Assembly (NCBI RefSeq): GCF_029962835.1 | Contig: NC_080582.1 | Coordinates: 70,428,177 to 70,492,176 of the forward strand | Direction: 5' to 3' | Length of the DNA: 64,000 nucleotides | Source of the DNA: Magnolia sinica | Lineage: Eukaryota; Streptophyta; Magnoliopsida; Magnoliales; Magnoliaceae | In this document: positions 34,984 through 64,000 of the stretch, in pieces | Numbering within the stretch: the stretch's first letter is position 1 | How the letters are laid out: the number at the start of each line of letters is the position of its first letter | Position numbers and translations under genes: made by a program | Notes under the pieces: generated by a model | Seen by the model: only the letters and a program-made list of their open reading frames with translations | The model's database searches: none | Told to the model about the DNA's origin: nothing

Positions 34984-35185
34984 AGTGGAAGCTCCTTGAT
35001 GAGGAGGGCCGGATAATGAAGACAATGGCTAGATTCATGGTGAGAGTTCATCACCATTTTCAAAATGGTGGTGACACTGTGTTCACCCCTGTGGCACTCA
35101 TGTATAGCCATAAGGACCATAAAAATTGTGGCGAGTGCCTTATTGGTGGACCATATCTCAAATCACAGTGATGAAGGAATCCTAA

Positions 35186-37413
35186 TGATCAGGGTCAAAT
35201 ATTGCATATCAGACCCCAGTAATTACCAGATTTTACGTATATGATAATGCTTAATGGAGTATTTTAATTGTATTTTTGTTACAGGATGAAGTCAGGAGCG
35301 TTAATTGAAAATTGATGTTAAAGGCATGGATTTCATGATCCAAAGTCTCCAGAGCACGGGATGGACTCCAGAGAATCAATAATGAAGATTTTACACGCCT
35401 GAGATCTGAGGAAAGCAAGCCAAAGGGGCCCGAAAAGGGTCCAGAATGCAAGATCACATGGTTCCCGCTATCCGATCAGTTCGAAACTTCATACATGGGA
35501 TGAGGGCCGTAAATTAACCGTACATATTAAATTTCAGCCATTGAAGAGCTCGGGAAGTGGTCCAACGAATAGATCAGCCTATTAATCTCCAATTTGGGGC
35601 CCACCTGATATTTGGAACTGCCTCAACCTTGGTGTTGACGGCTAAATTACCATGATAAAGACGATGGATGGTGTAGATTTCTCGTAAACATCACGGTGGG
35701 CCCTGTGTATGAGGAGCGTGCACACTGCACGTTTCCACCGGCTGAGCACCGAGCAAGCCGGCGTCGGTCAGCAGCGCTGACCCGATTCCTTTCAAAAAAC
35801 GGAACTTTTCATTTCCAGCGCCGCAACGGGCGGAAAGACCGCTTTTTACGGACCGCTGTGGGCCCCACCGGTAACACGTACGGCCGATCCGAGCCGTTCA
35901 TCATGTAGAAGGGTTCATCAGCTACAAAACCATGTTTGCAGTTTGTGCTCATGCGTGCACACGTGCGTGATACAGAGGCCACAAACAGGCCGTCTTGTGA
36001 CGTTCAAAACTGATTTTGTTCTGATTTCTTCTCTGGGCTGCGTCCACGCAAATTCAAAACCATCCATATTTGAACGAAATCTCGTCCTCTATCCAATGGA
36101 CGGGGTGGATTTCCCCGAAAAAGCTTATGTGGGGCCCACCGAGCATCACAGCGCCGGACGTGCGAAGGCTTACGCACGTCCGCGAAGAACTGACTTCCGG
36201 GTGGTTATGGCCCACCATCTTCGATCAGATGGAAGATCTGATCCGTCCATCGTGTAGAAGGCTTCGAAAGCTTCAAAACCATGTTGACATTCCTCGCCCA
36301 TGTGTACACACATGTGCGGTACAGAGGCCAAAAGTAGACTGCCCCGGGACGTTCAAAACTGAGTTTTTTTGAGATTTCTTCTGTGGGCCGCGCTAATGGA
36401 CCTTCAAAACCACCTATTCTTGACTGAAATTTCGTCCTGAATCCAATGGACGGGGTAGATTTTCCAGAAAATGCCTCTGTGGGGCCCACCAATCACGGCT
36501 GTGAAAAATTGCACTTCGAGTCCTTCTACGACTCTGCCACCGACCCCAGCCATCCAGCAGCTATAGAAGGAGAGTTTTGGACGTGGGAAAGGCATTCAGA
36601 ACGAGGGGATTCCAGATCTGGAGCAAGGAAGAGAAGAAAGAGAAGAAAGAGAAGAAAGAAGAGAGAGAGATTGTTTGGTTTGATGTTTTTTTATGAATTT
36701 TATTTAATATTTTTTATGGATTTTATGGGTCACTAATCTCTCAGCTAGGGCTGAGATGAAGCCCCTAATTTGATTAGCTCTTGTATTGGTTGATTTACTT
36801 TGAATTTCAATTAATTTGTTTCTTTCTTTAAGTGGGCTTTATGGGTTTAAATTCTATACTTCTCCATCTATGAATTTGATTAAAGTATATATATGGATGT
36901 TGTTTGGATGCTTATTATAGGTGCTTGTGTCTGATCAAGAACAAGTTTCCTATAGAGGAAGAAACAGGGTGCTTTAATGAATGTACATTCCATGTACCCG
37001 ACCAAGGATATGGGATATGTCATTCATGGCATTGCTTAAAGGAATTAGACAGTTTGTATGCCCGATTAAGGACACAGATTGTGCTTTCTCTGTATAAGTG
37101 GTATCAATCTAGATCAAGGTGAATCAACAGACAAAACAAGGTTAGGATAATTAGGGGTGGATTCGAAAGTCCTAGTGCTCTCTCTCTGATTGAATTTTCT
37201 TCCCTGTTCTTAATTAATTGTTTTTTTTTCATAAAATTGTGCTTAGTAATTCATTCCATTATTTGTTGGATTAGTTAAGGAGAATCGTAGATTTGAATTG
37301 TGACGACCAGTCCTCGTGGGAACGATCTCGTAATACGTACCGTATCTGCATCTGATTCGTATACTTGCGAGTTTAAATATCATTTAAATCGTGTTGGTTT
37401 AAATAAAACATCA
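35186..37413 (+). repeat. 5' LTR of the gag-protease element
   Basis: It starts TGATCAGGGTCAAATATTGC and ends AAATAAAACATCA. Inside is an imperfect tandem duplication with a period of about 350 bp (around 35,890-36,150 and 36,250-36,495). Both halves carry CAAAACCATGTT, a GTACACAC-type block, ACGTTCAAAACTGA and AATGGACGGGGT followed by TGTGGGGCCCACC. Confidence 0.93.
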
Positions 37414-37419
37414 AGTTTT

Positions 37420-37437
37420 TGGCGCCGTTGCCGGGGA
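37420..37437 (+). promoter_or_regulatory. Primer binding site, Athila/Tat type
   Basis: TGGCGCCGTTGCCGGGGA lies six bases after the LTR end. The same string marks many plant Ty3/gypsy Athila/Tat lineage elements. Confidence 0.85.
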
Positions 37438-38115
37438 CTGTTTCGTTCCAAATTGGATTTAGGATTCTCTCTTATCATAATTCATAGTCTTAGTTTTTTT
37501 GACTAACTTTAGGTTAAATTTTTTCTTTAGAAACTAACCTATTTCCTGTTTTGTAGGGACCTGACATAAACTACTAATTTGGTAATCTCTTTCCGAATTT
37601 TCTATTTTTTTCTAATTTCTATTTTTAGAATCAAGGTTTTATTTTTTTTTAGAAGTTTCTATTTCTAGGCTATTTTATTTTATTTTTAGAATTTTCCTAT
37701 TTTCTAATTCTAGATTCTGATTCTTCTTTCAAGTAACTTTCTATTTTCTAGTTTTAGAAATTTTTCCCTTTTTAGAAACTAACTTAGTTTTTTATTTCTA
37801 AGATTACAAACTTTCTTTTTTAGAAATTAACCGTTGCTTAGGATTTTTTTTCTAGCATTATTTTAGTAAATTTAATTTATTTTTGTTTTTGTTTACAGGA
37901 ATTAAGGAAGGAAGCTGCTAAATAACATTGTCTTCAAAAGGAGGAGCTCTCAAATCTTCAGACATTCATCATCTCCTTTTCTCGGGTTCTTCTTTCCAAT
38001 TCTCGTTTACATAGCTTTCTCTTGTTCTTAGGAATTCATAACTTTTTCCTTTAGTTTTATTCATCTTAGGTTGCATCTTAGTTTAGTTTTCTTTCTTATA
38101 TTGATAGCATAGTTT
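37438..38115 (+). other. T-rich untranslated leader of the LTR element
   Basis: The leader lies between the primer site and the gag start. It is very T-rich with many short TTTCTATTTTTAGAA-like repeats and no coding frame. A long leader is usual in Athila/Tat elements. Confidence 0.6.
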
Positions 38116-40926
38116 ATGCTAGGACGTAGATCTCTGAATAGAGAACTAGCACCGTTTGATCCTGAGATTGAAAGAACAATTCGTGAAAGATTGAGAAATA
38201 ATCCTGTTGAAATGGCGAATGAGACTGAAGTTAAAGCTCTCAAAGATTATTCAGCTCCTGTCCAATTTAATGCGCCTTCATGCATAGTGTTGCCAACCAC
38301 TACGGCAGCACACTTTGAACTTAAACCTGGAGTTATACAATTGTTGCCATCCTTTTATGGATTGGACAAGGAGGACCCATATCATCATGTGAAAGAATTC
38401 TTAAACATTTGCTCCACCTTTAAGTTCCAAAACTTCTCAGACGATTCGATCCGCCTACGCCTGTTTCCTTTTTCTTTGAAGGATAAGGCGAAAGCATGGT
38501 TGAATTCTCTAGAAGTTGGATCTATCACTACATGGGACCAACTGTCTAAGAAGTTCTTAAACAAGTTCTTCCCCGTTCACAAAACCAATGCCCTCCGTAG
38601 AGAAATTACTAACTTCACACAAAAAGAGGGCGAGCACTTTCATGAATGTTGGGAAAGATGGAAGGACTTGCTTCTTAAATGTCCTCACCATGGTTTTGAG
38701 AAGTGGCAACAAGTTCAATACTTCTATGACGGTCTGACACCACAGAACCATCGCATGGTTGATGCCACCAGTGGAGGGTCATTCATGACCAAAAGTGATG
38801 TCGAAGCATGGAACTTCTTTGAAACCTTGTGCGAAAATTCCCAGCAATGGGATTATTCAAATAGAGGTGACAGAAGTCCCCAACCACAAAAGAGAGGTGG
38901 TATATATGAGATAGGAGTCATGCCAGAGCTGAGCGCCAAGCTTGATAACCTGACAAAGAAAGTTGATGCTCTGGTATTAAATAGTGGACCACCACAAACA
39001 GCTCAAGTCGAGGCATATGCCACATGTTCTAGTCCTGCCCATCCTATGCAGTCTTGTCCATCTGGTGCAGCATTCCCAGAACTTCTCTCTGAACAAGTTC
39101 ATGCTATGAACACTTTTCAAAAATCTGGGAATGATCCTTACTCGAACACATACAACCCAGGGTGGGCTAGATATCCAAATTTCTCTTGGGCAAAAGGACC
39201 ACAACAAGGAGGACCATCTGGAAATCCTCCCATGCAACCGCACCTCCAAGTTGGCAGTCAACAACCTCAACAGTTTCCACAATATCAACAACTGCCTACA
39301 CAATCAAGGAAACCATCTCTTGAGGATACACTCCATCTTTTCATGCAGAGTTCTCTCCAATTCCAAAAAGACACCCAACAAACCTTACTGGTCAACCAGC
39401 AAAGCTTACATGCAAATGCACAATCCATTGCCAAGCTGGAAGTACAAATGGGTCAACTAGTTGCCACATTGAGTGAGAGAGAGAAGGGCAAGTTCCCTAG
39501 CCAACCTGAGGCTAATCCAAAGGGACAGTATGAGATTGGCTCTAATTCCAACCAAGAGCAATATCATGAACAGGCCAAATCGATCACTACCCTTAGGTCA
39601 GGCAAGCAGATTGATAACAGAATAGAGATGCCTGGGGATGAATCAAATTCTAAAACAGAAGATCAAGATGAAGCAAAGAGCCATACCAATGCATCCAAAG
39701 TCCAAAAGCTCTCTGACTCTCCAAGAGCCACTAATGTGCCACCTTATGTGCCCAAAGCACCCTTTCCTCAACGTCTGGCACCAATAAAGAAAAGAAATAA
39801 CTTTGATGAAATCTTGGATGTGTTTCAAAAAGTGCAAGTCAACATCCCGTTGCTTGACGCTATCAAGCAAGTCCCTGCTTACGCTAAGTTTCTTAAAGAT
39901 TTATGCACTCAAAAGCGTAAGCAGAATGTTCATAAGAAAGTCTTCCTTGCAGAGCAGCTCAGCTCCATGATTCAACATAACACCCCTCCTAAATTTAGGG
40001 ATCCAGGAGCTCCCACCATTTCTTGCGGCATAGGAGATCATAAGATCGGGAAGACATTACTTGATTTAGGGGCGAGTGTCAATTTGTTACCATATTCGGT
40101 TTATGAGCAGCTAGGACTTGGTGAGTTGAAACCGACTAAGGTAACATTACAACTAGCCGATAGATCTGTCAAGGTGCCCCGGGGTATTATTGAAGATGTG
40201 TTAGTCCAGGTTGATAAATTTTATTTTCCAGTGGGTTTCATAGTTATAGATACTCAGCCTGTCCAGAATCTTCATAGTCAGATCCCAGTCATTTTGAGTC
40301 GTCCATTTTTGGCCACATCTAATGCTATTATCAATTGCAGGAATGGAGTTATGAAATTGTCCTTTGGTAACATGAATATTAAACTCAATGTTTTTAATGC
40401 AGGACAACAACCCTCAGATTTGGATGACATATTTGAAGTGGACATGATCGAGAGCCTTGTACAGGACTCCTTCCGTACATCTTTTGAAGATCCTCTTGAG
40501 ACCTGCTTAGCACAATCGGGCATGGATTTTGACATTGATAGTCTCATCCATGAAGTCAATGCATTGCTCGACTCTACTCCTATATTGGAGACTGAAAAAT
40601 GGAGAGCGAAAGTGGAACCTCTTCATCCCTCTGAGACTCTTCCTGACAGCACAATTTGTAACTCTGAGAAGACAAAGGCGAGCAGGCTGCTTAATGTTCT
40701 TAAAGCATATAAGGCAGCAATTGAACGGAAGATAGAAAAAATTCAGGGAGTATGCCCCACTGTATGGATGGATCATGCTGTGGTAATATCGCATAACATG
40801 CAAAGGAAGCGTGATCCTAACATAGAAGAAGTCGTTCGAGCAGAAGTCCTTAAATTATTTGACGACAGTGTCGGTTGCCTTATTTCAGATAGCACCGTTC
40901 ATGGGAACTCACATCACTTATCCTAG
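38116..40926 (+). CDS. Retrotransposon gag-protease polyprotein
   Basis: A single open frame of 936 codons encodes the structural and protease part of the LTR element around it. Residues about 70-240 form a retrotransposon gag domain (YGLDKEDPYHHVKEF, FPFSLKDKAKAWL, FFPVHKTNALRREI, YDGLTPQNHRMVD). The middle is Gln/Pro-rich and low in structure. Residues about 640-760 resemble a retropepsin (ISCGIGDHKIGKTLLDLGAS, LADRSVKVPRGIIEDVLVQV, PVILSRPFLATSNAIINC); the active-site triad reads DLGAS, a common variant in plant elements. No zinc-knuckle CCHC was seen. The frame lies between primer site and 3' LTR with nothing like RT or integrase downstream, so the element would need enzymes from a relative. 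The start is the first ATG of the frame. Confidence 0.9.
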   Translation: MLGRRSLNRELAPFDPEIERTIRERLRNNPVEMANETEVKALKDYSAPVQFNAPSCIVLPTTTAAHFELKPGVIQLLPSFYGLDKEDPYHHVKEFLNICSTFKFQNFSDDSIRLRLFPFSLKDKAKAWLNSLEVGSITTWDQLSKKFLNKFFPVHKTNALRREITNFTQKEGEHFHECWERWKDLLLKCPHHGFEKWQQVQYFYDGLTPQNHRMVDATSGGSFMTKSDVEAWNFFETLCENSQQWDYSNRGDRSPQPQKRGGIYEIGVMPELSAKLDNLTKKVDALVLNSGPPQTAQVEAYATCSSPAHPMQSCPSGAAFPELLSEQVHAMNTFQKSGNDPYSNTYNPGWARYPNFSWAKGPQQGGPSGNPPMQPHLQVGSQQPQQFPQYQQLPTQSRKPSLEDTLHLFMQSSLQFQKDTQQTLLVNQQSLHANAQSIAKLEVQMGQLVATLSEREKGKFPSQPEANPKGQYEIGSNSNQEQYHEQAKSITTLRSGKQIDNRIEMPGDESNSKTEDQDEAKSHTNASKVQKLSDSPRATNVPPYVPKAPFPQRLAPIKKRNNFDEILDVFQKVQVNIPLLDAIKQVPAYAKFLKDLCTQKRKQNVHKKVFLAEQLSSMIQHNTPPKFRDPGAPTISCGIGDHKIGKTLLDLGASVNLLPYSVYEQLGLGELKPTKVTLQLADRSVKVPRGIIEDVLVQVDKFYFPVGFIVIDTQPVQNLHSQIPVILSRPFLATSNAIINCRNGVMKLSFGNMNIKLNVFNAGQQPSDLDDIFEVDMIESLVQDSFRTSFEDPLETCLAQSGMDFDIDSLIHEVNALLDSTPILETEKWRAKVEPLHPSETLPDSTICNSEKTKASRLLNVLKAYKAAIERKIEKIQGVCPTVWMDHAVVISHNMQRKRDPNIEEVVRAEVLKLFDDSVGCLISDSTVHGNSHHLS

Positions 40927-42314
40927 GATCGGTTAATGAAAGTGTTGAGGGAATTTCTTTGGCGGACCACGGTTATAAAGATTATTTCATTCATGGTCCG
41001 TTCTTGTCTGGTAAGACGTTAAACTTAGCGCTCATGGGAGGCAACCCCTTTTGCTTTATTGTATTGCTTTTTATTTCGTTCATTTTCATTTTTCTTAGTT
41101 AGTTACTTCAATGTTTGTGGGTAACATTACTGCAAACCCTCACGAGACTACAACTCGTCCACTAGGGGTAACCTAGGGGTTTAAAGGCTTGTTGCATGCG
41201 CTAAATGCAATCGAGAGCACTTGCGAAAGTGGTATAGGTAGGATCTTCTTTTGTTTTTCTTTTTGTTATTTTTGCTTATGTTTCTCTCTTGCCCTAACTT
41301 GCTCTTACATTGATAATTTGGGGAAGCCTCTTGATTCTCCGTCCAGGTACTATCTTTCCCTCATTCCTCTTTTATTATTCGTTGTTCCATGTGCATCGCA
41401 TGATTATTTCTTTTACATTGAGGACAATGTAGATTTTAGGTTGGGGGTGGGAGATTAGGTAACCTAATCAGTATTTTCTTGGTTTTGAGCAAAATTTGTG
41501 AAAATTTTAAAATTTTTTCTAGAATTTCTATTGAATTCAAAGTGATTTTGAAGGATAGTTGTGATTTTACCATTATAAGATACATGATGTTGGTAACTAA
41601 TGACTTCTAGATTCGGCCATCTGCTTGATTTCACAGTCCATTTTGATTTGTTAATCCATGATTAGACGTTGTAAACATTGATTGAGTCATGATTTCACAT
41701 ATCACATCTCGCTTACACATTAAGCTTTCGGTTCGATAACTGAATGATTAACTTGGTAAAAAGAAGAATTAAAAGGCTAAGTCACATAATCTTCACCATA
41801 GGTTTGCTCCCTATAGGTATAGATTTGATTCTCCATAGTTGACTTATAAAAAATGAGGCGACGAGTTTTCGCCATAGGTTTGCTCCCTATAGGTAAGAAT
41901 TTGATTCCCCTCATTTGCGTTACTGCTCATAAAGAAAATCAAAGGTTGGTAAAATTAAAAATTAATCTGTGAGATAAGTGTTGGTTTCAAGCTTGGTTGT
42001 CACGAATTACCAATGATATCATGAGATTGACAATTGGATCTCTTAATGTTTGTAAGTCGAGATTACACTTTACATTCATGGAGCTCGATGTTCAGAAATG
42101 TTCTAATTAATGGATTAATATGTTGAACTCGATTATGAAGTTTACTGTGAGCTTGATTTCAGGAGAAAACTCTACTTACCATTCATGAATCTTAGAATTT
42201 TCACATCTCAGCTGTCTGTTCACAAGTTACTTGAGTTACAGGAATCATCTTTTATTTCTAAAATTATTTTTCGCATACTTTGCTCGGGACTAGCAAAATG
42301 CTGGTTGGGGGTTG
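40927..42314 (+). other. Non-coding 3' internal region of the LTR element
   Basis: The region between gag-protease and the 3' LTR has no domain I recognise. It holds a purine-rich GGTTGGGGGTGGGAGA tract near 41,442 and another, GGTTGGGGG, right before the 3' LTR (42,304). The latter is the polypurine tract. It also holds a ~75-bp direct repeat with CATAGGTTTGCTCCCTATAG at 41,799 and 41,874. Confidence 0.7.
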
Positions 42315-44527
42315 TGATCAGGGTCAAATATTGCATATTAGACCCTAAACATTACCAGATTTTACGTATATGATAATGCTTAATGGAGTATTTTAATTGT
42401 ATTTTTGTTACAGGATGAAGTCAGGAGCGTTAATTGAAAATTGATGTTAAAGGCATGGATTTCATGATCCAAAGTCTCCAGAGCACGGGATGAACTCCAG
42501 AGAATCAATAATGAAGATTTTACATGCCTGAGATCTGAGGAAAGCAAGCCAAAAGGGCCCGAAAAGGGTCCAGAATGCAAGATCACATGGTTCCCGCTAT
42601 CCGATCAGTTCGAAACTTCATACATGGGATGAGGGCCGTAAATTAACCGTACATATTAAATTTCAGCCATTGAAGAGCTCGGGAAGTGGTCCAACGGATA
42701 GATCAGCCTATTAATCTCCAATTTGGGGCCCACCTGATATTTGGAACTGCCTCAACCTTGGTATTGACGGCTAAATTACCATGATAAAGAGGATGGATGG
42801 TGTAGATTTCTCGTAAACATCACAGTGGGCCCTGTGTATGAGGAGCGTGCACACTGCACGTTTCCACCGGCTGAGCACCGAGCAAGCCGGCGTCGGTCAG
42901 CAGCGCTGACCCGATTCCTTTCAAAAAACGGAACTTTCCGTTTCCAGCGCCGCAACGGGCGGAAAGACCGCTTTTTACGGACCGCTGTGGGCCCCACCGG
43001 TAACACGTACGGCCGATCCGAGCCGTTCATTATGTAGAAGGGTTCATCAGCTACAAAACCATGTTTGCAGTTTGTGCTCATGCGTGCACACGTGCATGAT
43101 ACAGAGGCCACAAACAGGCCGTCTTGTGACGTTCAAAACTGATTTTGTTCTGATTTCTTCTCTGGGCTGCGTCCATGCAAATTCAAAACCATCCATATTT
43201 GAACGAAATCTCGTCCTCTATCCAATGGACGGGGTGGATTTCCCCGAAAAAGCTTATGTGGGGCCCACCGAGCATCACAGCGCCGGACGTGCGAAGGCTT
43301 ACGCACGTCCGCGAAGAACTGACTTCCGGGTGGTTATGGCCCACCATCTTCGATCAGATGGAAGATCTGATCCGTCCATCGTGTAGAAGGCTTTGAAAGC
43401 TTCAAAACCATGTTGACATTCCTCGCCCATGCGTACACACGTGTGCGGTACAGAGGCCAAAAGTAGACTGCCCCGGGACGTTCAAAACTGAGTTTTTTTG
43501 AGATTTCTTCTGTGGGCCGCGCTAATGGACCTTCAAAACCACCTATTCTTGACTGAAATTTCGTCCTGAATCCAATGGACGGGGTAGATTTTCCAGAAAA
43601 TGCCTCTGTGGGGCCCACCAATCACAGCTGCGAAAAATTGTACTTCGAGTCCTTCTACGACTCTGCCACCGACCCCAGCCATCCAGCAGCTATAGAAGGA
43701 GAGTTTTGGACGTGGGAAAGGCATTCAGAATGAGGGGATTCCAGATCTGGAGCAAGGAAGAGAAGAAAGAAGAGAGAGAGAGATTGTTTGGTTTGATGTT
43801 TTTTTATGAATTTTATTTAATATTTTTTATGGATTTTATGGGTCACTAATCTCTCAGCTAGGGCTGAGATGAAGCCCCTAATTTGATTAGCTCTTGTATT
43901 GGTTGATTTACTTTGAATTTCAATTAATTTGTTTCTTTCTTTAAGTGGGCTTTATGGGTTTAAATTCTATACTTCTCCATCTATGAATTTGATTAAAGTA
44001 TATATATGGATGTTGTTTGAATGCTTATTATAGGTGCTTGTGTCTGATCAAGAACAAGTTTCCTATAGAGGAAGAAACAGGGTGCTTTAATGAATGTACA
44101 TTCCATGTACCCGACCAAGGATATGGGATATGTCATTCATGGCATTGCTTAAAGGAATTAGACAGTTTGTATGCCCGATTAAGGACACAGATTGTGCTTT
44201 CTCTGTATAAGTGGTATCAATCTAGATCAAAGTGAATCAACAGACAAAACAAGGTTAGGATAATTAGGGGTGGATTCGAAAGTCCTAGTGCTCTCTCTCT
44301 GATTGAATTTTCTTCCCTGTTCTTAATTAATTTTTTTTTTTTTCATAAAATTGTGCTTAGTAATTCATTCCATTATTTGTTGGATTAGTTAAGGAGAATC
44401 GTAGATTTGAATTGTGACGACCAGTTCTCGTGGGAACGATCTCGTAATACGTACCGTATCTGCATCTGATTCGTATACTTGCGAGTTTAAATATCATTTA
44501 AATCGTGTTGGTTTAAATAAAACATCA
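42315..44527 (+). repeat. 3' LTR of the gag-protease element
   Basis: It is a near-identical copy of 35,186-37,413 with the same TG...CA ends and internal ~350-bp duplication. It ends about 1.1 kb upstream of the chitinase A start codon, so its own promoter or enhancer sequence, if active, would sit next to that gene. Confidence 0.93.
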
Positions 44528-44879: not shown

Positions 44880-45310
44880 GATGGGAGGATCACTCAACGT
44901 AAGGCCCATCTTGATGTATGTGTCTTACATCCACGCCGTCCATCCATTCTGAAAGATCAATTGAGACATGATCCCCGAAAAGAAGCAGATCCAAATCTCA
45001 GGTGAACCACACCAAAGATAAAAATGGTGATGGAATAGCCTCCATTAAAAACTTCTTGAGGGCCACAGAAGTTTTCCATCGATCTGATATTCTTATGATC
45101 GCATCATCCAGACCTCTGTGACCTTAGTACACGTTGGATGGAAAATAAACATTGTGGTGGCCCCAAAAAGTTTTAATGGACGGTATTGAATCACCACTTT
45201 TTCCTGTGGTGTGGTCCATGAAAGATTTGGATCTGCTTCATCTATGTTATCATGCCCTCAAATGATCTGTCAAAACGGATGAACAGCGTGGATGTGAGAT
45301 CCTAGCCGTT
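44880..45310. mobile_element. Fold-back element in the chitinase A upstream region
   Basis: The left arm has TCTTACATCCACGCCGTCCAT and CTGAAAGATCA. The right arm has the inverse, TGATCTGTCAAAACGGATGA and CAGCGTGGATGTGAGA. It was already present before the duplication, because copy B has it at 60,445-60,850. Confidence 0.65.
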
Positions 45311-45654: not shown

Positions 45655-47181
45655 ATGGCCCACCTGACTATGGCACTGCTACTATTCATCTCAGCCTTGC
45701 ATGGTGGAGCCGATGCCGACAGCCCAGCATCGTCGCCGACACCAGCCCCTTGGTTTTCTATCCCTAGGATTCCTACACCATCTCTTAATTCGCCTGCACC
45801 ATGTAGCCCATCTTCCTCGACCAGCCCTGGACCCATTTCTAGTGCACCGATGTCGGTCCCACCTGCGCCGGCTCCATCTGAACCGTCGTATCCACCCATG
45901 TCGGCTCCACCAGCTCCATCTCAATTGCCTATTCATGCTCCACCTTCCCCAGCTCCCGGCCCACGAAGATCATCGGTCAAAGCTGCTTATTGGCCTTCAG
46001 GTCGATCATCGGCCTTCTCGGCATCGGCCATTGATACATCTTACTTCACACATGTATACTACGCATTCGTCATGCCCGATCAGAACACTTATGAGCTTGT
46101 GATAACTCAGCCACACGATCAGATGCTGCTGAACTTCACTGCGACGATGCACAGCAAGCACCCACCAGTCAAAGCTCTTCTGTCCATTGGAGGTGGAGGA
46201 AGCAATCGCACCATCTTTGCACTCATGGTCAGTAATTCATCATCGCGGGCCGTATTCATCAACTCAACGATAACCATTGCTCGGATGTACGGTCTAGATG
46301 GGCTTGATCTTGACTGGGAATTCCCACAGAATCAGGAGGAGATGGATAATCTCGGATTCCTCTTCGCTGAGTGGCTGGCCACACTCAGGAAAGAGGCGAA
46401 GGACACCGGCCGTCGCCGGCTACTTCTCACTGCTGCAGTCTACTTTTCTGTTGATATCTTACTAGACGGCGTCAAACGAACGTACCGCACCGGATCGATC
46501 CGTCGGAACCTTGATTGGGTGAGTCCTATGTGCTTCGACTACCATGGATCATGGGACACGTCGGTCACTGGGGCTCATGCAGCGTTGTATGATCCCAACG
46601 GTTCGAATCTGACGACTAGCTACGGCATCACGTCGTGGATCAATGCTGGTATCCCACCTTGGAAGGTTGTGATGGGCCTACCGCTCTACGGTCGAACATG
46701 GCAGCTCAAGGACCCGAGTATTCACGGTATCGGAGCACCGGCTGTCGGTGTGGGCCCCGGAGACGGCATCATCGTATACTCTGATTTGATGGACTACAAT
46801 GTCCAGAACAATGCCACAATGTCCTATGATGGGGCTACAGTGTCTGCCTATTCATATGCTGGGACATCGTGGATCGGTTACGATGATGCCACGTCAATCA
46901 TAGGGAAGATCAAGTACGGACAGAGGGAAAAGAACATACGTGGATATTTCTTCTGGGCGCTTGGATTCGACAAGGAGTGGACCATCTCTAAGCAAGGTAA
47001 CAAAGCATCCTCTTATTATTTTCAACGCATGTGTACAAAAGCTTCAGACCTTCAGTCCACGTTCAACTTAGGTGGGCTGGTCCTGGGCCTACATAAGAGT
47101 CAAAGCCCAGTCCATACATGGGCCCTGATCAGGTCAGGTCTCAACAGTAGTGATGAGCACGGGACAACCCGATATGGCTAA
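45655..47181 (+). CDS. GH18 chitinase (class V type), copy A
   Basis: Predicted secreted endochitinase. Residues 1-22 are a signal peptide (MAHLTMALLLFISALHGGAD). Residues ~24-102 are a Pro/Ser/Ala-rich linker. Residues ~103-447 are the GH18 barrel, with LLSIGGGG, the catalytic DGLDLDWE at 215-222 (acid E222), MCFDY at 292-296, and a closing FFWALGFDKEW. All expected catalytic residues are present. The ATG sits in AGCCATGGCC, a good plant start context. The open frame continues to 47,181, but similarity with copy B fades after Q447, where CAAG/GTAACA (intron from 46,997) looks like a splice donor. Acceptors conserved in both copies (47,685 and 47,923) would end the protein within a few residues. 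The last ~60 codons, which run into a transposon insert at 47,148, are therefore doubtful. The kinase-like tail of some class V relatives is not seen. Confidence 0.88.
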   Translation: MAHLTMALLLFISALHGGADADSPASSPTPAPWFSIPRIPTPSLNSPAPCSPSSSTSPGPISSAPMSVPPAPAPSEPSYPPMSAPPAPSQLPIHAPPSPAPGPRRSSVKAAYWPSGRSSAFSASAIDTSYFTHVYYAFVMPDQNTYELVITQPHDQMLLNFTATMHSKHPPVKALLSIGGGGSNRTIFALMVSNSSSRAVFINSTITIARMYGLDGLDLDWEFPQNQEEMDNLGFLFAEWLATLRKEAKDTGRRRLLLTAAVYFSVDILLDGVKRTYRTGSIRRNLDWVSPMCFDYHGSWDTSVTGAHAALYDPNGSNLTTSYGITSWINAGIPPWKVVMGLPLYGRTWQLKDPSIHGIGAPAVGVGPGDGIIVYSDLMDYNVQNNATMSYDGATVSAYSYAGTSWIGYDDATSIIGKIKYGQREKNIRGYFFWALGFDKEWTISKQGNKASSYYFQRMCTKASDLQSTFNLGGLVLGLHKSQSPVHTWALIRSGLNSSDEHGTTRYG

Positions 47182-47678: not shown

Positions 47679-48037
47679 ATTGCAGCCATTTAAAATAGAC
47701 AAGGATTATGGTTAAGCATCTCCCTCATCACTGCACACGTGGCAAACATATCTGGTAATTGGGAGTTGTGATGGTGGGCCATCACGTGGATAGGCTATAT
47801 ATATATGAAGGAACTCGTAGTGTTAGGACAGCTGTACAACCATCCATTTGGTGTGATTTTTTAAAAAAAATTTTTATATCTTTGATTGGATATGGACCAC
47901 TGCTCTAACCGTTCATGTTGCAGGCTACTGATTGGATGGCCGCCACATTCCAATCCCCTTACTTTTTCACAGATGGAAAATCCACGTGGTGGCCCACCAT
48001 GTGAACAGTTCTGATCACTGAAAAATGTTGATTTTAG

Positions 48038-48599: not shown

Positions 48600-48615
48600 G
48601 ATTTTATGCAAGGAG

Positions 48616-49226: not shown

Positions 49227-49447
49227 GCACAGAGGGGAGTTATTTGTTACTCTGGCAGACTCTGAAGCTTGATACACAGGCACCAAGAAATTATACACGT
49301 TGCATACATGAACACATATTAAACCGACCAAAATGTGGAACCCGCTGTCGCTAAGCGACAGTCCCAAAATGAAATTGGGACTGTTGGATGTTTTTTTTTT
49401 TTTTTTTTTTTACCGTCCAGTAAATGTCCACCAATCTGATACTTAGC

Positions 49448-52650: not shown

Positions 52651-53218
52651 TCAGACAAACAGAAATGCAAGAATGTCACGCATATTTTTCTCTGCAAGAG
52701 CTTTTGCCTGAAATTTGAAATGAAAACAAAAAATGTAAGCTCACAGTAATTCCATTCAAGAAGCTTGTCTCCCAAATTAAACAGAACCACATCACCTACA
52801 GCAAAATATTTTATCTCTATTACTCATAACACAGAATATCATATAAACAGGTTGCAGACCTGTCAAGTGCATTCCCAGACATGTAGGTTTTGAACAAGGC
52901 ACATACCGCACGTTCAACTGTCCGTTGATTCCTCTCCCACCTTGCTTGACATCTTCAACCTCAGCTCCTTGATGCTTTCCATTAGAGTAGGAAGCTTCAT
53001 TGTGACAGAACAGTATAATTCATAAGCAAAGCATCCATGAAAATGCAAACAAAGCTCTGAAGAATCAATGGTATAAAAAGATGCAAGAAAATAGCACATA
53101 TGGAATTGCATACCACCTTGATTTGTGGAATTTGAATATCTCTGTGAAGTACTGCTGGAAGAATCTGTAGCAGCTGCCCGTTTTGCCTCCTGGGCTGCCT
53201 TCTCAGCTAGAGCTCTTT
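52651..53218 (-). pseudogene. Gene fragment resembling an auxilin-like protein
   Basis: Three exon-like pieces lie on the minus strand. The first, 53,218-53,117 (TTTTAG acceptor, GTGGTA donor), reads RALAEKAAQEAKRAAATDSS, a charged helical stretch. The second, 52,994-52,907, joins it in phase and reads SYSNGKHQGAEVEDVK. The third, from 52,707 after ATTTCAG, reads AKALAEKNMRDILA and then stops. ALAEKN-RD just before the clathrin/J-domain region is a hallmark of plant auxilin-like clathrin-uncoating proteins. Piece two does not join piece three in phase, and no J-domain follows. I read it as a truncated fragment. It could also be part of another coiled-coil gene. Confidence 0.4.
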
Positions 53219-53507
53219 CTAAAACAAAAGCAGATTCAGATGCTGCAGACTTTCCTGGACTTCCGGTTCAAATGATGATATTCAACTAAAACGTTCATAC
53301 CATAATCAGATACTTTGGAGAACATGACCAGTGTTAAGACATGCATGCACACATAGCATAAGCATGCAAAGCACAAAAATCACTTTCAATCCAACACAAA
53401 AGCAGATTCAGACACTTGCCGCATCAGTCGACAACATCACATTGAATGGAAATAACATTCTCAACACTGTTGCATAATATACCTGGATTGGGACTTTGAC
53501 ACACTTA

Positions 53508-54056
53508 GGCCGTGTTTGATTTCCAAGAGTTTGGGTAAATACCCAGGAAATGGGTAATTATTACCATTTCATCCGTTTGAAAATCCAGGGAAACTTCTGC
53601 ATTGGGAACTGGTTCAAATAGCTATTTAAAATTTTTGAACCTCAAGGTAATGTATATAATATATCAATTCCGTCGATATGTTTTACCACAATATTTTGAG
53701 ACATGAGCCAAAAAATGAGGATGATCCAACACTCAGGTGGCCCACACCAAAAGAAACAGTGGCCTCGCAAAGGTTTTAACGGTAAGTATTCGATTCCTGT
53801 TTTCGTATGGTGTGATCCACTTGAGTTTTGGATATACCTCATTTTTTTGCTCAAACTATAAATTCAAAAGGCATAATGGATGAACGGTGTGGATAAGCGA
53901 AATGCATCACAGTGGGACCCATATATATTTTGTAACGTCTTCAGTTTTCGTGTCAAAAAAGTAAGTAGTCAAATCAGGTGCCTTGTAAATACACAGGGAA
54001 GTAATTATTACTCTTTTCGCTGGTATGTACCATTTCACTGGAAATCAAACAGGCCC
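53508..54056. mobile_element. Tourist-like (PIF/Harbinger) MITE
   Basis: Inverted ends are GGCCGTGTTTGATTTCC and GGAAATCAAACAGGCCC, flanked by TTA on both sides (53,505-53,507 and 54,057-54,059), the target preference of PIF/Harbinger. Length is 549 bp with no coding content. A fold-back core (CTCAGGTGGCCCACACC, GATGAACGGTGTGGAT) sits inside. Confidence 0.88.
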
Positions 54057-54059
54057 TTA

Positions 54060-54749: not shown

Positions 54750-56984
54750 TTAAACCTGCAAAACAAAACAATAAAAAGAAATTAATTAGTACTTGCAATC
54801 TTTTGTACAAGAAATTCTATTGTATATGGCAAAAAATAAAATAAAATAAAATAAAAATCTTACCTTACATAAAATAGAAGGCCAAACAATACTCGTTCCA
54901 ATAGCATCCCCAATTGTTTTATATCGTCCATAGGGTCTTATCAAAACCTCATCCCGTACTATTGCCACATGAATTAATACTTCCCAAAAACCAATTCCAA
55001 GTTCATGCCCCCCTACTTTTGTGAGGGGATCCTTGCTCAAAACAACTCCTTTAGCAATAGTAACCCCAGGTTTCATGATACTTGTAAGACTAACTCCAGT
55101 CATATCCTAGAAAATAAAATATATCATCTAATTAAGAACATAATAACATTAAAATACAATAAAAGAACTATTCACTTGGTGTAAGGAATTACCCCGGCAC
55201 TAGTACAACTCGTGGTCTTCCCCTTATTCGTCGAGCGTTTCTGCAAATGATAAATCAATATCAATCATTATATACCAACTAAACTATATATAATCTAGGA
55301 CATAGTGCATATGTAAATATATACATGTATATAATATAATTACCCGATAGGTCACCCAATGTCTTGATAATGAGGACGGTTGGTTCATGTTAGAACTAGC
55401 TGCAACACCGAATACTGTGGGTGGGTTATTGTTTGCATTATTCATAGTGGCTATCAATTTCATCAGAGTTTCTTTTAAGGAAGAAATTTCAGCATCTCTT
55501 GTGGATGAGATTTCAACCATAGTTTCTTTGAGGGATGACATTTCAGCTTCTCTTAAGGATGAGAGTGCAGCTATATTTTCTTTTAGAGAGACTATGTCAG
55601 CATGTAGTTCATCATATCTTTCATCTCTTCTCTGAGCAATGGAGGCCATCCTTTGCTGGCTGGATGTTGTGCCCCACAAATCAGATGGAGATGGTCCTAA
55701 CCCATAAGTGCGGACACGACCATGCCTATCTTCTCCCATGACTTGAGATAATAGATCATTCCTTATCGTGCTACTCTGTGAGGCCCCAGGTTGCTGAGAT
55801 ATTTCTTCATTGAGTTTTGTCTGCAATAATAATTATCGCATGGTAACAGTTAATGTGTAAACACTATAGCTGCTGCAACACATTTATATGGAGCTCTTAT
55901 TGCATGTAAATACACTAACATACCATTACTACTGATGAGGCCTCATCCACAGGCTTTCCATCTTTGCATGTATGAGTCAATATAAACATATCTGCTCGGC
56001 TCGGACCCTCCCCATTGGCCTTTTTCCTCTATTATTATGTAAACAAGTTATATAACACAAATATACTAACATGGTTTGTCAGGTTATTAATAAAATTTAC
56101 CTCTTCCTCACGTATTCGCGCAAAACTCTTCGAGCCTGCTGCATGGTTAATCAGTTGTTTCTTCCGACTCTTTGTATTTGTTTTAGAACGAGCCTATATG
56201 TGATATACCAATAAAGTAAATTATAAGATATCAACAAAAAGATTTGTATAATTTTGTAATTGAATGAAGCATACCTTCCCCTCTTCAGAGTTCCAAAACT
56301 GAACGAGAATCTTCCATTGATCCTCTTGGACCCGCTCATCAAGATCTGCGAGCCGCTCCTCATCAATCTCATGAGAAGAGTAGTGGAGTTTCTTCAGCTC
56401 GCCCTTCCATTCCCTCCATTTTTTACCAATTGACTTCAACACCCAAGCCTTAGCATTACCGTCAAACTCAAACTTGGACTGCATCACATGTTAAAATCAG
56501 ACAATCACATAATGAACAAAAAAAAAAAAAAAAAACCATCGTAACCATTACCGTGACAAGCCCCCACATATCATCTTTCTTTGCATTCGGCACCGCCCTC
56601 CAATCATTAAATGTAAGGGGAGCATATTCCCCATTGCGTGCTAGTGTCCCTATGAAATTTGTCAGCTTACTAGCATTGTCACAAATGGGCTGCCCTAGAT
56701 CATTGACGGAAATAGATATCCGTTGACCTTCACGCTTTTTCCAAACATCAAAGCATCGCGTGGGGCCTCGAGTCTTTGTTTTCTTGGACGTTGAATCTGT
56801 TGAATAAAATCACAATGGTACATATAAAACTAATTAACAAAAGCAAATTACATGGTAAAACACATATTGGCCACGAGAGAAGAACACATTTTGTTATACC
56901 ACTAGTAACCTGAGGCAGCTGAGGTTGGCTGGTGCTATCAGTCATAGGGCCTACAGATTGCCTAACCCTGCGTCTAGTACTCAT
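54750..56984 (-). CDS. Plant transposase (Ptta/En/Spm family), nine exons
   Basis: I could thread nine exons on the minus strand with GT-AG introns and matching phases: 56984-56900, 56796-56552, 56478-56275, 56193-56101, 56028-55924, 55820-55344, 55240-55193, 55106-54864, 54755-54750. Together they give 501 codons with a stop at 54,750. Family marks, in order, are RGPTRCFDVW, NASKLTNFIGTLARNGEYAP, WVLKSIGKKWREWK, QWKILVQFW, GPSRADMFILTHTCKDGKPV and GEDRHGRVRTYGLGPSPSDL. They match the plant transposase_24 (Ptta/En/Spm) family, the TNPA-like second protein of CACTA elements, thought to bind DNA. Residues ~310-370 hold SLKE/SLRE heptads (a coiled coil from an internal repeat). The start is the second in-frame ATG (MSTRRRV); MLNM three codons upstream is possible. 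No flanking CACTA tips were seen, so it may be a stranded element gene or a host gene derived from one. Confidence 0.82.
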
Positions 56985-57732: not shown

Positions 57733-58722
57733 CTGCATAATTAAGAAACCATGAGAACAATCAATCAAATATAAATAAATACTTAGAACATAATGTTGTT
57801 TGATGTTGGCCACAGTTGTAATGAAAGAGGAATCATAATGCACAAAATTATATTGCTTCATGATAGTCGAAGGTTGGCCTGGATTTTGAATTTGAATTTG
57901 CTGGCCCAGGCCCAACCCATTGCCAAGCTTGTTAAAAGGAGAATATTACATAGGATAGATGCCATTCACATATGAAAACTATCTTAATATGCTTTAACCC
58001 AAAAATCACAAGCTACTTATTGAGAAGTCATGAATTGTTACACTTTGGCATATGTTTCTAGGATAATTACTAGAATGCAGTAAACTCAATCATCCAAAAG
58101 GTATTTTATTCATCTCGAGTGGTCAGCATGTCTCTTCATTGATATTACATGAATATAAAATGGAAAAAATAAGAGTGAAGATGAAACAGAGGGTTGCTGC
58201 ATAGAATGTGCCATAAGTTTCTAGCTTTTGTATATTAAAATTGACAAAATGGAGTTCCTTTCACCAGTGTCTGCAGAGAGAAGGAAGCCTAAGGACTTGG
58301 AGCCCGAAGCTACTCTTTTATAAACGAAATGAAGCAAAAGAGTAGTTAACGCACATAAAGGGAGTCGCGTCGATTGAGTTTTCCAAGATGTAAATGCAGC
58401 TGTTTCTAAGGTGTTGGAATACAATAAATTTAATTCCTCCTAACGTGATAAATTGCTGCAAGCAAGGATATAGTAAGTACGATTGGGGACGACTAAGTAC
58501 TGAGAATTCCATACCGCTATACAAAGGGTAGGTGAATCACAAGATGATCACTCATCCTATGAAGTGCGGTCAGGATAGAAAACACACGCCATCTGAATGT
58601 TGACCAAGAGCTTAAAAATTTATTCATTATTATGCAGGTCATTGACCGCTTGGTTACAAGAGAAAGAAAGCAAGAGCACTACTGGAGACAGACAAGTCAG
58701 ATCTTTAAGCTGTCAAATTTTG
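57733..58722. other. Spacer, no supported gene
   Basis: AT-rich sequence; short minus-strand frames show no domain. Confidence 0.35.
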
Positions 58723-59360
58723 CTAGGAGGTCCTACATCTCTGCTTCATTTTTCTCTTTAGTGGGCTCCCAACAATTTTCTTTCTCAATGAAACGTGGCA
58801 AGAAGTGAAGTAATTGATCAACACAAACAAAAATAGAGTGTACTTTATTCTCAGCCGCTTTTTGGTCAGTTCATCTATGAACTCTAAGTCTATTGGGTCA
58901 GCCATTTCTTTTGCATAAAAGGCGCTGCCTCGCTTTTGTAATTCATCCATCGTGCCAGAGCAGTAAGACTGGAACATCCTAAGCATCTATCGGTTGAATT
59001 GGTGCGTCGGAACACAATGCAACTTGTTGTACCAGGTTCTTTCATATTTGCCTCATATCGGCCAATTCCTTCATGACTGCTTATTGCTGTTATAGGAGAC
59101 GTGTGCACCCCATGGAGATAGCATGATGTCTTATATTGATCTCCCATATCTGCTAACTGCTTCGGCTTTAAGAGTAAACCCTCGAGTTTATCGTTCAGCT
59201 CAGCCGAAGGATGAAAGTCGAGCGAACACAAAGCATCAGTAATGAATCTCCTTATGTTAGATGGTAGAAAGGAGAAAGAGAAGACTTTCAACCCTTCGCC
59301 AAAAATCTCTCGAAGATAGGACTCAACTCTTGCAATGAGGGAAGGTAGCTCAATAACCAT
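58723..59360 (-). pseudogene. Unrecognised gene remnant, minus strand
   Basis: A 156-codon frame (59,360-58,890) starts MVIELPSLIARVESYLREIF and continues SNIRRFITDALCSLDFHPSA and ELNDKLEGLLLKPKQLADMG, which has balanced composition and looks coding. A second frame overlapping its end (58,986-58,723) reads SYCSGTMDELQKRGSAFYAK then EMADPIDLEFIDELTKKR and also looks coding. A TTAG acceptor near 58,989 could join them through a small intron. I do not recognise the family. It may belong with the coiled-coil piece just upstream. Confidence 0.35.
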
Positions 59361-59637
59361 GAGAACACTCAGATTTGAAAAAGTTATGATGAGATTGGAA
59401 GTTCAATGCCATTTAAATAGTGGGTTCAGAAAGCCCCACTATCCGAAAAAGACGTGGCTAGAAGAAACTACACGATCTAAATTGCTTGTGGTATGAGCAG
59501 CTAATGCAATATATTCAGAAGCAGTTCATGTTTAACTAAAAACCAGTGAAAGCTCTGGAAGGCATAATTGCGTACTGTTATTCGAGGAAATGAAAGTCTT
59601 AAAAGTGGCTCGAAGGCCATTCATTCATACAAAAGTG

Positions 59638-59909
59638 TTACAGATTAAATGATAAAAATTGTTGAAAGAATGTTTCAACCATCATTATCCATCTTTTGGC
59701 TACTAATAGCGATGCTTCTCCCCTTGCCGTTGATCGAGATGCTTGATTCATTTCTTCTGCTTGTAAATGTACTGTAGCAACTAACCGGGAAACCTCATCC
59801 ACGGTTTTAAGTTGCTCTGGACGTTCCTCTGCTAATTGCTTTCTCAATGTGATTAGTTCGGCCTCCAAAGCTGCAATCTCTAAATTCCGGATTCTCAGCG
59901 GAGCCCGTA
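59638..59909 (-). pseudogene. Coiled-coil coding piece, minus strand
   Basis: The minus strand reads NLEIAALEAELITLRKQLAE, then EQLKTVDEVSRLVATVHLQA, a clear heptad coiled coil, and ends KRWIMMVETFFQQFLSFNL. The upstream end of the open frame (to 59,952) crosses into the duplicated chitinase segment, so the original start is gone or lies elsewhere. Such tails occur in several plant proteins of unknown role. It is probably the 5' remnant of the unrecognised gene downstream, cut by the duplication joint. Confidence 0.35.
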
Positions 59910-60444: not shown

Positions 60445-60850
60445 TGTGGATCACTCAATGTAGGGTCAATCGTGATGTATTTTCCTTACATCCACGCCGT
60501 CCATTCGTTCTGAAAGATCATTTGAGTGCATGATCCTAGAAACGAAGCAGATCCAGATCTTATGTGAACCACACCACAGGAAAAAGTGGTAATTGAATAC
60601 CCTCCATTAAAAACTTCTTATGGGCCACAGAAGTCTTCCATCAATCTGATATTTGTATGATCGCTTCATCCTGGGAAATAATCATTCCGGTGGCCCCGAG
60701 AAGTTTTTAATGGACGGTATTGAATTACCGCTTTTTCCTGTGGTGTGGTCCATGAAAGATTCCGATCTGCTTCATTTCTGTGTTAATACCCTAAAATGAG
60801 CTGTCAAAACGGATGAACGGCGTGGATGTAAGTCAAATACATCCACCCGC
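60445..60850. mobile_element. Fold-back element in the chitinase B upstream region
   Basis: Counterpart of 44,880-45,310. The left arm is CCTTACATCCACGCCGTCCAT, the right arm the inverse AACGGATGAACGGCGTGGATG. Confidence 0.65.
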
Positions 60851-60926
60851 GCCCACCCAATCCGCATCCAAACACGCACCTATAGCAAGTTGGCCGCCGC
60901 AGCAACCGCCAATCATATTCGGCGCA

Positions 60927-60942
60927 CACGTGGGGTCACGTG
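60927..60942. promoter_or_regulatory. Paired G-boxes (CACGTG), chitinase B only
   Basis: Two perfect CACGTG palindromes lie at 60,927-60,932 and 60,937-60,942, about 370-380 bases before the ATG. CACGTG is the G-box/ABRE core bound by bZIP and bHLH factors in plants. Copy A jumps from GTGGATG straight to TGAGATCC (about 45,290-45,300) and lacks this ~115-bp stretch. Confidence 0.55.
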
Positions 60943-61308: not shown

Positions 61309-62715
61309 ATGGCCCATCTGAGTATGGCACTGCTACTATTGACTGCTGTGTTGCATGGTGAAGCCGATGCCGACGGCTCAGCAACGTCGCCAACACCGGC
61401 CCCATGGTTTTCTATCCCTTGGCTTCCCACACCATCTCCTAATTCGCCTGCACCAAGTGGGCCATCTCCCTGTCCCAGCCCTGGACTCACTTCTAGTGCA
61501 CCGATGTCGGTCCCACCTGCATCGGCGCCATCTGAACCTTCTTATCCACCCGTATCGGCTCCACCGGCTCCATCTCCATTGCCTATTCATATTCCACCTT
61601 CGCCAGCTCCTGGCCCACAAAGATCAACGGTCAAAGCTGCTTATTGGCCTTCATATCAATCATCGGCCTTCTCAGCATCGGCCATTGATACATCTTACTT
61701 CACACATGTATACTACGCATTTGTCTTACCCGATCAGAACACTTATGAGCTTGCGATAACACAGCTGGACGATCAGATGCTGCCGAACTTCACTGCGACG
61801 CTGCACAGCAAGCACCCGCCAGCCAAAGCTCTGCTGTCCATTGGAGGTGGAGGGAACAATTCCACTACCTTCGCACTCATGGTCAGCAATCCATCATCGC
61901 GGGCCGTGTTCATTAACTCAACGATAACCGTTGCTCGGAAGTACGGTCTAGATGGGCTTGATCTTGATTGGGAATTCCCACAGAGTCAGGAGGAGATGGA
62001 TAATCTCGGGTTCCTGTTCGATGAGTGGCGAGCCGCACTCTGGAAGGAGGCGATGGACACCGGCCGTCGCCGTCTACGGCTCACTGCTGCTGTCTACTTT
62101 TCTGCTGATTTCTTCCTATCCGACGTCAAACGGACGTACCCCACCGTATCGATCCGTCGGAGCCTTGATTGGGTGAGTCCTATGTGCTTCGACTACCATG
62201 GATCATGGGACACGTCGGTCACTGGGGCCCATGCGGCGTTGTATGATCCCAACGGTTCGAATCTGACCACAAGCTACGGCATCACGTCGTGGATCAATGC
62301 TGGTATCCCACCTTGGAAGGTTGTGATGGGCCTACCGCTCTACGGTCGAACATGGCAGCTCAAGGACCCGAGTATTCACGGTATCGGAGCACCGGCTGTC
62401 GGTGTGGGCCCCGGAGATGGCATCATCGTCTACTCTGATTTGGTGGACTATAATGTCCAGAACAATGCCACAGTGGTCTATGATGGGGCCACAGTGTCTG
62501 CCTATTCATATGCTGGGACATCATGGATCGGTTACGATGATGCCACGTCAGTCATAGGGAAGATCAAGTACGGACAGAGGGAAAAGAACATACGTGGATA
62601 TTTCTTCTGGGCTCTTGGATTCGACAAGGACTGGACCATCTCTAAGCAAGGTAACAAGGCATCCTCTTATCAATTTCGGGATGCACACGGTCCGTTTGGT
62701 CCGGTTCTGGATTGA
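61309..62715 (+). CDS. GH18 chitinase (class V type), copy B
   Basis: Paralogue of the gene at 45,655. The first 447 codons align without a gap and about nine residues in ten agree; most changes are in the signal peptide and Pro-rich linker. Signal peptide residues are 1-22 (MAHLSMALLLLTAVLHGEAD). The linker runs to ~102. The GH18 barrel is ~103-447 with DGLDLDWE at 215-222 and MCFDY at 292-296, so the catalytic set is whole. After Q447 comes the same donor-like CAAG/GTAACA (intron from 62,651). The open frame then runs into a hAT-like MITE that begins at 62,676 and supplies the apparent stop. If the intron is real, the MITE is intronic and harmless. If not, it replaces the C-terminus. It is likely secreted and acts on chitin or related GlcNAc polymers in the cell wall space. 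Confidence 0.88.
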   Translation: MAHLSMALLLLTAVLHGEADADGSATSPTPAPWFSIPWLPTPSPNSPAPSGPSPCPSPGLTSSAPMSVPPASAPSEPSYPPVSAPPAPSPLPIHIPPSPAPGPQRSTVKAAYWPSYQSSAFSASAIDTSYFTHVYYAFVLPDQNTYELAITQLDDQMLPNFTATLHSKHPPAKALLSIGGGGNNSTTFALMVSNPSSRAVFINSTITVARKYGLDGLDLDWEFPQSQEEMDNLGFLFDEWRAALWKEAMDTGRRRLRLTAAVYFSADFFLSDVKRTYPTVSIRRSLDWVSPMCFDYHGSWDTSVTGAHAALYDPNGSNLTTSYGITSWINAGIPPWKVVMGLPLYGRTWQLKDPSIHGIGAPAVGVGPGDGIIVYSDLVDYNVQNNATVVYDGATVSAYSYAGTSWIGYDDATSVIGKIKYGQREKNIRGYFFWALGFDKDWTISKQGNKASSYQFRDAHGPFGPVLD

Positions 62716-63276
62716 AACCAGAGCCGAACCAATCCTAACAGTTCTAGGAAAATCGAAACTGGAACCGTGCTGTTTGCACCCTGGAACCCAACCGGAACCT
62801 GACCGTAAAAATCGGTTCAGTTCTGGTTCGGTTTTATGGTTGCGGGCCAAATAGACAACTAAAATATATTGTAAACATATAAAATACTTTTAAGACAAGT
62901 CCAATTAAGCATGATAATTATACTCCATAACATAGTAGAAGTATGTTGCAAAATATAAAATCAATATGGAAATCCTTGGATAGAAGTTAGGGCTGCAAAA
63001 ATACATAATTTAGTAAATATTTATTGATTGGAATGGTACAGTTCCAAGTTCAATTTTGAGTTCGGTTCAACGGTCCGGCTCATAGTACAGTTCCAAGTTC
63101 GGTTCTAGGGTTCGGTTGACGGTTCGGTTCGATTCTACAGGATCTCAAACTGAGACCTAAACTAAACTAATTGGTTTTTTGATTTTCAGAACCGGAACCG
63201 AAACCGGTGCACTTCAGAACAGTTTGGTCGGCTTCGGTCCAATTTACCAGTTCTACCAGTTCCATGTGCACCCCTA
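62676..63276. mobile_element. hAT-like MITE with GGAACCG-rich interior, copy 2
   Basis: It has the same ends (T-GGG-TGCACA and TGTGCACCCCTA) and the same short CGGTTC/GGAACCG interior repeats as 48,616-49,226. Flanks CTTATCAA and CTTGTCAT are a diverged ~8-bp target duplication. Copy A is uninterrupted here (CTCTTATTATTTTCAACGC, about 47,010). Confidence 0.78.
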
Positions 63277-64000
63277 CTTGTCATTATCAACGCATGTGTA
63301 CAAAAGGTTCAGTCCACGTTCAGCTTAGGTAGGCTGGTGGGCTGATCCTGAGCCCACATAAGACTCAAAGCCCAGTCCATTTTAGGACCAACACCTGACA
63401 GCCATACATGGGCCCTGATGAGGTCAGGTCTCTACATCCTATTGCAGCCCTTTAAAATAGACAAGGATTATGGTTAAGGCGTCTCCCTCATCACTGCACA
63501 GGTGGCAAACATATCTGGTAATTGGGAGTTCCGATGGTGGGCCATCACGTTAATAGGCTGCATGTGAAGGAAGTCCTAGTGTTAGGACAGCTGTACAACC
63601 ATCCATTTGGTGTGGTTTTTTCTTTTTTGTGGTTGGATATGGACCACTGCTCTAACCGTTCATGTTGCAGGCTAATGATTGGATGGCTGCCAGATTCCAA
63701 CCTCCTTATTTTTTATTTTCACAGATGAAAAATCCACGTGGTGGCCCACCATGTGAACAGTTCTGATCACTGAAAATGTTTTCCACGTGTACCATGTGGA
63801 GGGAAATACATAGATTTTATGCACAAAGGGGAGTTATTTGTTACTCCGGCAGACTGACGCTTGATACGCAGGCACTAAGAAATTACACACGTTGGTGGAA
63901 CCTGCTGTAACTAAGCGACAGTCCCAAAATGAAATTGGGAGTACTGTTGGATGTTTTTTATTTTAACCTTCCAGTAAATGTCCACCAATCTGATATTTAG

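Follow-up and report, generated by a model that had tools for sequence, protein, structure and literature searches.

The window examined here, a stretch of 64,000 nucleotides on the Magnolia sinica contig NC_080582.1, holds two copies, A and B, of a locus with a predicted GH18 chitinase gene. We compared the window, and likewise a 114-kb extension of it, with itself, and searched the genome of 1,838,573,281 bases in 127 contigs. Copy A runs on the plus strand from 34,996 to about 51,339 (16.3 kb, about 11.7 kb of that being private insertions), and copy B, on the same strand, from 59,910 to about 65,184 (5.3 kb), its last 1.2 kb lying beyond the end of the window at 64,000. That the two match outside their insertions, as a preliminary description of the window had claimed, is borne out by self-comparison and alignment, with BLAST E-values down to 0 and an overall Kimura two-parameter distance (K2P) of 0.101 over 4,357 aligned columns, from which gaps and the stretch 48,001-48,607 of A were dropped. 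For non-coding sequence the distance is 0.105 over 3,024 columns, with gap columns, coding positions and the region of a miniature inverted-repeat transposable element (MITE) dropped. Smaller indels of 10-32 bp are present in both copies. The edges given in that description need some correction: the first matching bases are 34,996 in A and 59,910 in B, two bases and one base inside the proposed starts, and the match runs on past the proposed range, with A 49,227-50,566 corresponding to B 63,821-65,091 and A 51,238-51,336 to B 65,083-65,181, a continuation that was invisible to a description confined to the window. In the 114-kb self-comparison the flanks of A and B differ, apart from repeats such as an element resembling a short interspersed nuclear element (SINE), and both copies sit on one 88.5-Mb contig. 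The two same-direction copies of the GH18 chitinase locus are real.

Each copy contains a chitinase open reading frame (ORF) on the plus strand, at 45,655-47,181 in A (508 aa; GH18 domain at aa 112-439) and at 61,309-62,715 in B (468 aa; GH18 domain at aa 111-439). Their GH18 domains match PF00704 with E-values of 9e-64 (A) and 1e-64 (B), and the catalytic DxDxE motif is present in both as DLDWE at residue 218. The nearest solved structures are plant class V GH18 chitinases, namely 4mnj (chitinase A, which we take to be from Cycas), 3aqu (Arabidopsis At4g19810) and 3alf (a class V chitinase), with E-values of 3e-90 to 2e-79 over aa 106-450, and A and B are predicted to be class V-type GH18 chitinase genes, to which they stand nearest. 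The solved chains begin at the GH18 domain, maybe as trimmed constructs, whereas A and B have a Pro/Ser-rich stretch before it (45,655-45,978 and 61,309-61,632), with 29 and 30 prolines, respectively, in 86 residues (aa 23-108). This stretch is missing from three relatives on contig C9, which form a 45-kb cluster (L016-L018; C9:17,995,998-18,041,049) and which, at 45-46% identity, make up with A and B the five places recovered by a protein search of the genome. The search reported a single stop, and this one, located in L018, is the match's final codon.

Where the GH18 domain ends, A, B and the three C9 genes have CAAGGTAA, CAGGTAA or CAGGTGA at corresponding positions, which suggests a candidate splice donor, at 46,997 in A and 62,651 in B; the frames of two C9 genes end right at this site. 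The tail of the A frame past about aa 447 is doubtful, and the last residues of the B frame would be element-derived if it were read on. No second exon was found downstream of the candidate donor in the chitinase loci, and a search for a short C-terminal exon by motif was abandoned after two hits, each without a counterpart in the other copy, and none in the C9 loci. We also rejected a GH18 receptor-kinase gene, as a motif scan of the 114 kb gave five matches judged to be chance: minus-strand HCDLR at 35,170 and 60,082, one spot shared by the copies in frames interrupted by stops, and three others away from the copies. The three C9 loci, scanned together with flanks of 1.5 kb, contain no kinase motif, and L059, 3' of one C9 gene, has no kinase-like frame by eye. 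Between A and B, the non-synonymous divergence (dN) is 0.071 and the synonymous divergence (dS) 0.154; their ratio of 0.46, which is 0.25 in codons 282-455, suggests that at least one copy is constrained at the protein level.

On the promoter side of the genes, the copies share a fold-back MITE on the plus strand whose flanks match on both sides. It lies at about 44,899-45,293 in A, where the right tip is missing, and at 60,474-60,843 in B, where the 145-nt arms are 83% complementary. B here carries 116 bp that are absent from A (60,827-60,942, plus strand), in which the fold-back's final 17 bp are included. Among 92 rows of family matches, counted with the window copies excluded and with the proviso that one place may yield several rows, 63 end at query position 930 or later, 14 at 919-929 and 15 earlier; the fold-back of A stops at query 918. 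The family normally includes the tip absent from A, so the 116-bp difference would most likely be a deletion in A and not an insertion in B.

The largest element private to A is a long terminal repeat (LTR) retrotransposon of 9,342 bp on the plus strand (35,186-44,527), with paired TG...CA LTRs at 35,186-37,413 and 42,315-44,527. Its target-site duplication (TSD), CCTAA, agrees in five of five positions, and a single CCTAA in B forms a perfect empty site. The ORF at 38,116-40,926 encodes a gag domain (PF03732, E 9e-21) together with a weak protease match just below Pfam's cut-off. Apart from this ORF the element has no frame of more than 116 codons, and no reverse transcriptase or integrase domain was found in the five frames scanned of the 12 short ones past it, the lone match being PIG-Y (E 0.015, below the cut-off). 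An LTR pair with gag and no pol domain found is also the make-up of gag-only LTR elements that are non-autonomous, such as TR-GAG, as the accessible part of the literature on them portrays it. The present element differs from TR-GAG by the weak protease match and is presumably longer. Its family comprises at least 71 match rows; for this and each other private element 40 candidates were scored, the own copy being counted, and the numbers are lower bounds. Seven other same-strand pairs of its LTRs lie 7.1-7.2 kb apart (7.13 kb here), and copies are up to 99% alike. The family is apparently gag-only and recently active. A second LTR-type element private to A, at 50,567-51,241 on the plus strand and outside the range described before, is solo-LTR-like, with TG...CA ends and a TSD of ATAAG agreeing in five of five positions; ATAAG occurs once in B, again a perfect empty site. 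At least 42 match rows belong to its family, and the matches listed include two on the same strand of contig C55 that form a pair at a distance of 5.2 kb.

The other four private elements, all given on the plus strand, resemble DNA transposons. At 47,148-47,678 in A lies a multi-copy element (at least 57 match rows) that may be called hAT-like by its termini, TAGTGATG/TAGAGATG; its flanking octamers agree at one of eight positions, so that the 8-bp target duplication of hAT elements is absent, and B differs at the site by about 4 nt. The hairpin MITE at 48,037-48,597 in A (at least 138 match rows) is Mutator-like by the length of its TSD, which agrees at seven of nine positions with ends chosen by the analyst, and B holds about 32 further bp at this site. 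A hAT-like element follows in A at 48,616-49,226 (at least 40 match rows), with ends TAGGGGTGCAC / TAGGAGTGCAC, terminal inverted repeats TAGGGGTGCACA / TAGGAGTGCACA and an 8-bp TSD agreeing at six of eight positions; its target, GCACAAAG, is found once in B. The hAT-like element private to B spans about 62,676-63,276, its left end being uncertain by a few bases. Its right terminus is TAGGGGTGCACA, as in the element at 48,616, which it resembles in part, at 70% over 240 bp in inverted orientation, and its family counts at least 74 match rows, all of them pieces, the longest covering 430 of 641 query bases. The octamers of this element agree at three of eight positions when its left end is taken at 62,680; with the end placed at 62,674, by eye and post hoc, CTTATCAA/CTTGTCAT agree at six of eight, against CTTATTAT in A.

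The preliminary description had counted four insertions private to A and one private to B, each facing an intact empty site in the other copy. The single insertion in B is confirmed, and the four in A are joined by the solo-LTR-like element as a fifth; the empty sites fare less evenly, being exact in two of six cases, both LTR-type elements, fair for the element at 48,616, doubtful for the B element, where the outcome depends on the chosen end, and not intact at 47,148 and 48,037. A difference in presence between the copies is proof of insertion only where the element is of a kind that does not leave its site by excision, here the LTR retrotransposon and the solo-LTR-like element. We infer that the four DNA transposons were inserted rather than excised.

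Only the LTR element carries a clock of its own, and the other private insertions are not ordered among themselves. Its two LTRs differ by a K2P of 0.0128 (28 differences in 2,212 sites: 24 transitions and 4 transversions), which is 0.12 of the non-coding divergence of the duplication (bootstrap 95% interval 0.08-0.18) and supports the view that the LTR element is far younger than the duplication. As 11 of the 24 transitions touch a CpG, it may be younger still than computed. The element had been called very young, which holds relative to the duplication; its absolute age depends on the rate. At a rice-type rate of 1.3e-8 it would be about 0.5 million years (My) old. The accessible part of a study on Liriodendron gives an intergenic rate of 1.51e-9 per site and year (PMC6784881), at which the LTR element dates to about 4.2 My and the duplication to about 35 My, and a rate of 3.02e-9 for dS (PMC6784881), at which the dS of 0.154 places the duplication at about 25 My. 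None of these absolute ages is more reliable than the rate assumed.

Which of the two copies is the new one? A dispersed repeat, R (58,292-59,897, minus strand), ends 12 bases before B. Elsewhere in the genome R is found at 67-84% identity in pieces of varied length, and it continues past the point of the B junction in all three copies that were fetched, by about 1.1 kb in L048 and L049, which match each other there, and by about 0.2 kb in L050; a search of the 114 kb around the window did not turn up the missing remainder. The R copy L048 contains two short ORFs. Since the left edge of B cuts R, the derived copy is probably B. Next to the left edge of A lies the SINE-like element (34,841-34,983, without assigned strand), which by eye has AGTGGAAGCT on both sides, the right one of these 10-bp flanking repeats ending 3 bases before the first matching base of A. 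At the right edge of the unit only the SINE family was found, and no repeat that would polarise it; a relative of the SINE lies at 65,284-65,398, about 100 bp beyond the right edge of B, possibly by coincidence.

Taken together, we consider it very probable that the locus was duplicated with its shared fold-back, B being the probable derivative, and that each copy then received its private insertions. Direct observation provides the shared and private elements, the ratio of LTR to duplication divergence and the broken repeat at the left edge of B. In such a course of events, a 5.3-kb segment with the class V-type GH18 chitinase gene and its promoter-side fold-back MITE would have been copied in direct orientation over a short distance, and B would be the probable new copy, its left edge breaking the dispersed repeat. 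The copies would have diverged by about 10% at neutral sites, under some protein constraint, and separate transposons would then have entered, five large ones into A, including the 9.3-kb LTR element, and one into B. Several points weigh against this scenario. The right boundary (51,339 / 65,184) has no repeat for polarising; R may owe its truncation to an unrelated deletion ending near the left edge of B, with 12 bases between the last match of R and B; and the comparison was confined to one plant genome. Moreover, two sites in A are unclean, the element at 47,148-47,678 having no TSD and B holding some 32 extra bp at 48,037, and the TSD of the B element varies with the chosen end, so that the order of insertion is unproven there. 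The order proposed in the preliminary description, from fold-back to duplication to private insertions, stands overall, with excision as the alternative to insertion for the four DNA transposons.

A head-to-tail tandem duplication by unequal crossing-over, in which elements inserted later would make up much of the spacer and the sequence continuing beyond B would have been deleted, appears unlikely, though it deserves some weight. The copies are neighbours in the same orientation, and the 8.6-kb spacer between them does contain a MITE (53,504-54,059) and, adjoining R, multi-copy transposon sequence from 54,228 to about 58,291 (copies mostly 84-92% alike in one comparison and 84-99% in another), in which a minus-strand ORF at 55,284-55,826 gives a weak Transposase_24 match (E 8e-4, below Pfam's cut-off). 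A low-copy stretch of the spacer, 51,944-53,221, matches C2:139,468,633-139,470,715 at 92-95% in pieces and is perhaps a copied gene fragment. However, a simple tandem duplication predicts a second copy directly after the first, with the downstream flank of A behind it, but the 8.6-kb spacer separates the copies and this flank is absent: the match ends at about 51,339 / 65,184, the flanks differ from there on, the spacer is not repeated after B, and within the 114 kb it matches only MITE-type stretches (53,650-53,923, E up to 1e-8). The cut-off R beside B would call for further deletions. A plain head-to-tail tandem duplication therefore seems to fit poorly, and we infer a displaced duplication, for which break repair or template switching would account better than simple unequal crossing-over.

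As to known routes of duplication, a CACTA element with B as its cargo was considered and rejected, as neither CACTACAA nor TTGTAGTG occurs at 45,000-80,000; looser patterns (CACTAGAA, TTCTAGTG, CACTA+AAAA) occur at six places, none of them at a unit edge, and two pairs among the six are the shared gene region itself. As reported from maize (PMC3744419), reversed-ends transposition of the hAT element Ac produces tandem direct duplications. The present locus is likewise a direct duplication with hAT-type elements nearby, whereas inspection of its unit edges by eye revealed no hAT end, no dedicated search having been made. Local (proximal) plant gene duplications share with it the same orientation, the short distance and private transposon insertions in each copy, and there is no difference of principle from the usual ones; here, one edge is polarised through the broken repeat.

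The hAT and Mutator elements can excise, so that some of the private DNA transposons might predate the duplication and have been lost from one copy. The sites at 47,148 and 48,037, which are not clean empty sites, would agree with this; the site of the 48,616 element in B, by contrast, looks like an ordinary unfilled target, and no footprint was recognised by eye at the others, which makes such losses improbable. Nor do we give much credence to gene conversion having partly reset the clock between A and B over the gene's 3' half. An identical run of 146 bp (permutation p 5e-5) and a dS of 0.091 in codons 282-455, compared with about 0.19 (p 0.044 by Fisher's test on synonymous codons), point in this direction, but the longest identical synonymous run is unremarkable (p 0.18) and the 3' dS is near the non-coding background of 0.105, so that protein constraint suffices; as the cause of the near-identical 3' coding stretch, gene conversion is not established. 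A bolder extension of our scenario would have a replication-based template switch copy the unit into the dispersed repeat and transposons then land past the same conserved coding boundary in both copies, the paralogues independently gaining C-terminal ends supplied by transposons. The insertions begin 151 bp (A) and about 25 bp (B) beyond the candidate splice donor, and we regard this extension as quite doubtful. An assembly artefact, or two alleles placed end to end, can be dismissed for practical purposes, as no evidence for it was found and as about 10% non-coding divergence, different flanks on both sides and the placement on one 88.5-Mb contig speak against it, as does an assembly made, according to the accessible part of its description, from Illumina, Oxford Nanopore and Hi-C data with a contig N50 of about 45 Mb (PMC10999834).

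Far from the duplicated unit, positions 1-5,245 of the window form a long satellite-like tandem array, with dense self-matches at about 71-79% identity. A literature search under paralogue-based dating found no published account of this locus among the titles listed, though its terms were narrow and it is no evidence of absence.

Every part of this locus is of a known kind, and the general view of such duplications is unchanged. Its value lies in providing a worked example of how transposons can be dated against a gene duplication without a second genome: two retroelements serve as one-way markers, one of them serves as a clock, and a broken repeat indicates the likely new copy. If confirmed in related Magnolia genomes, the locus could help to calibrate the dates of magnolia transposons.

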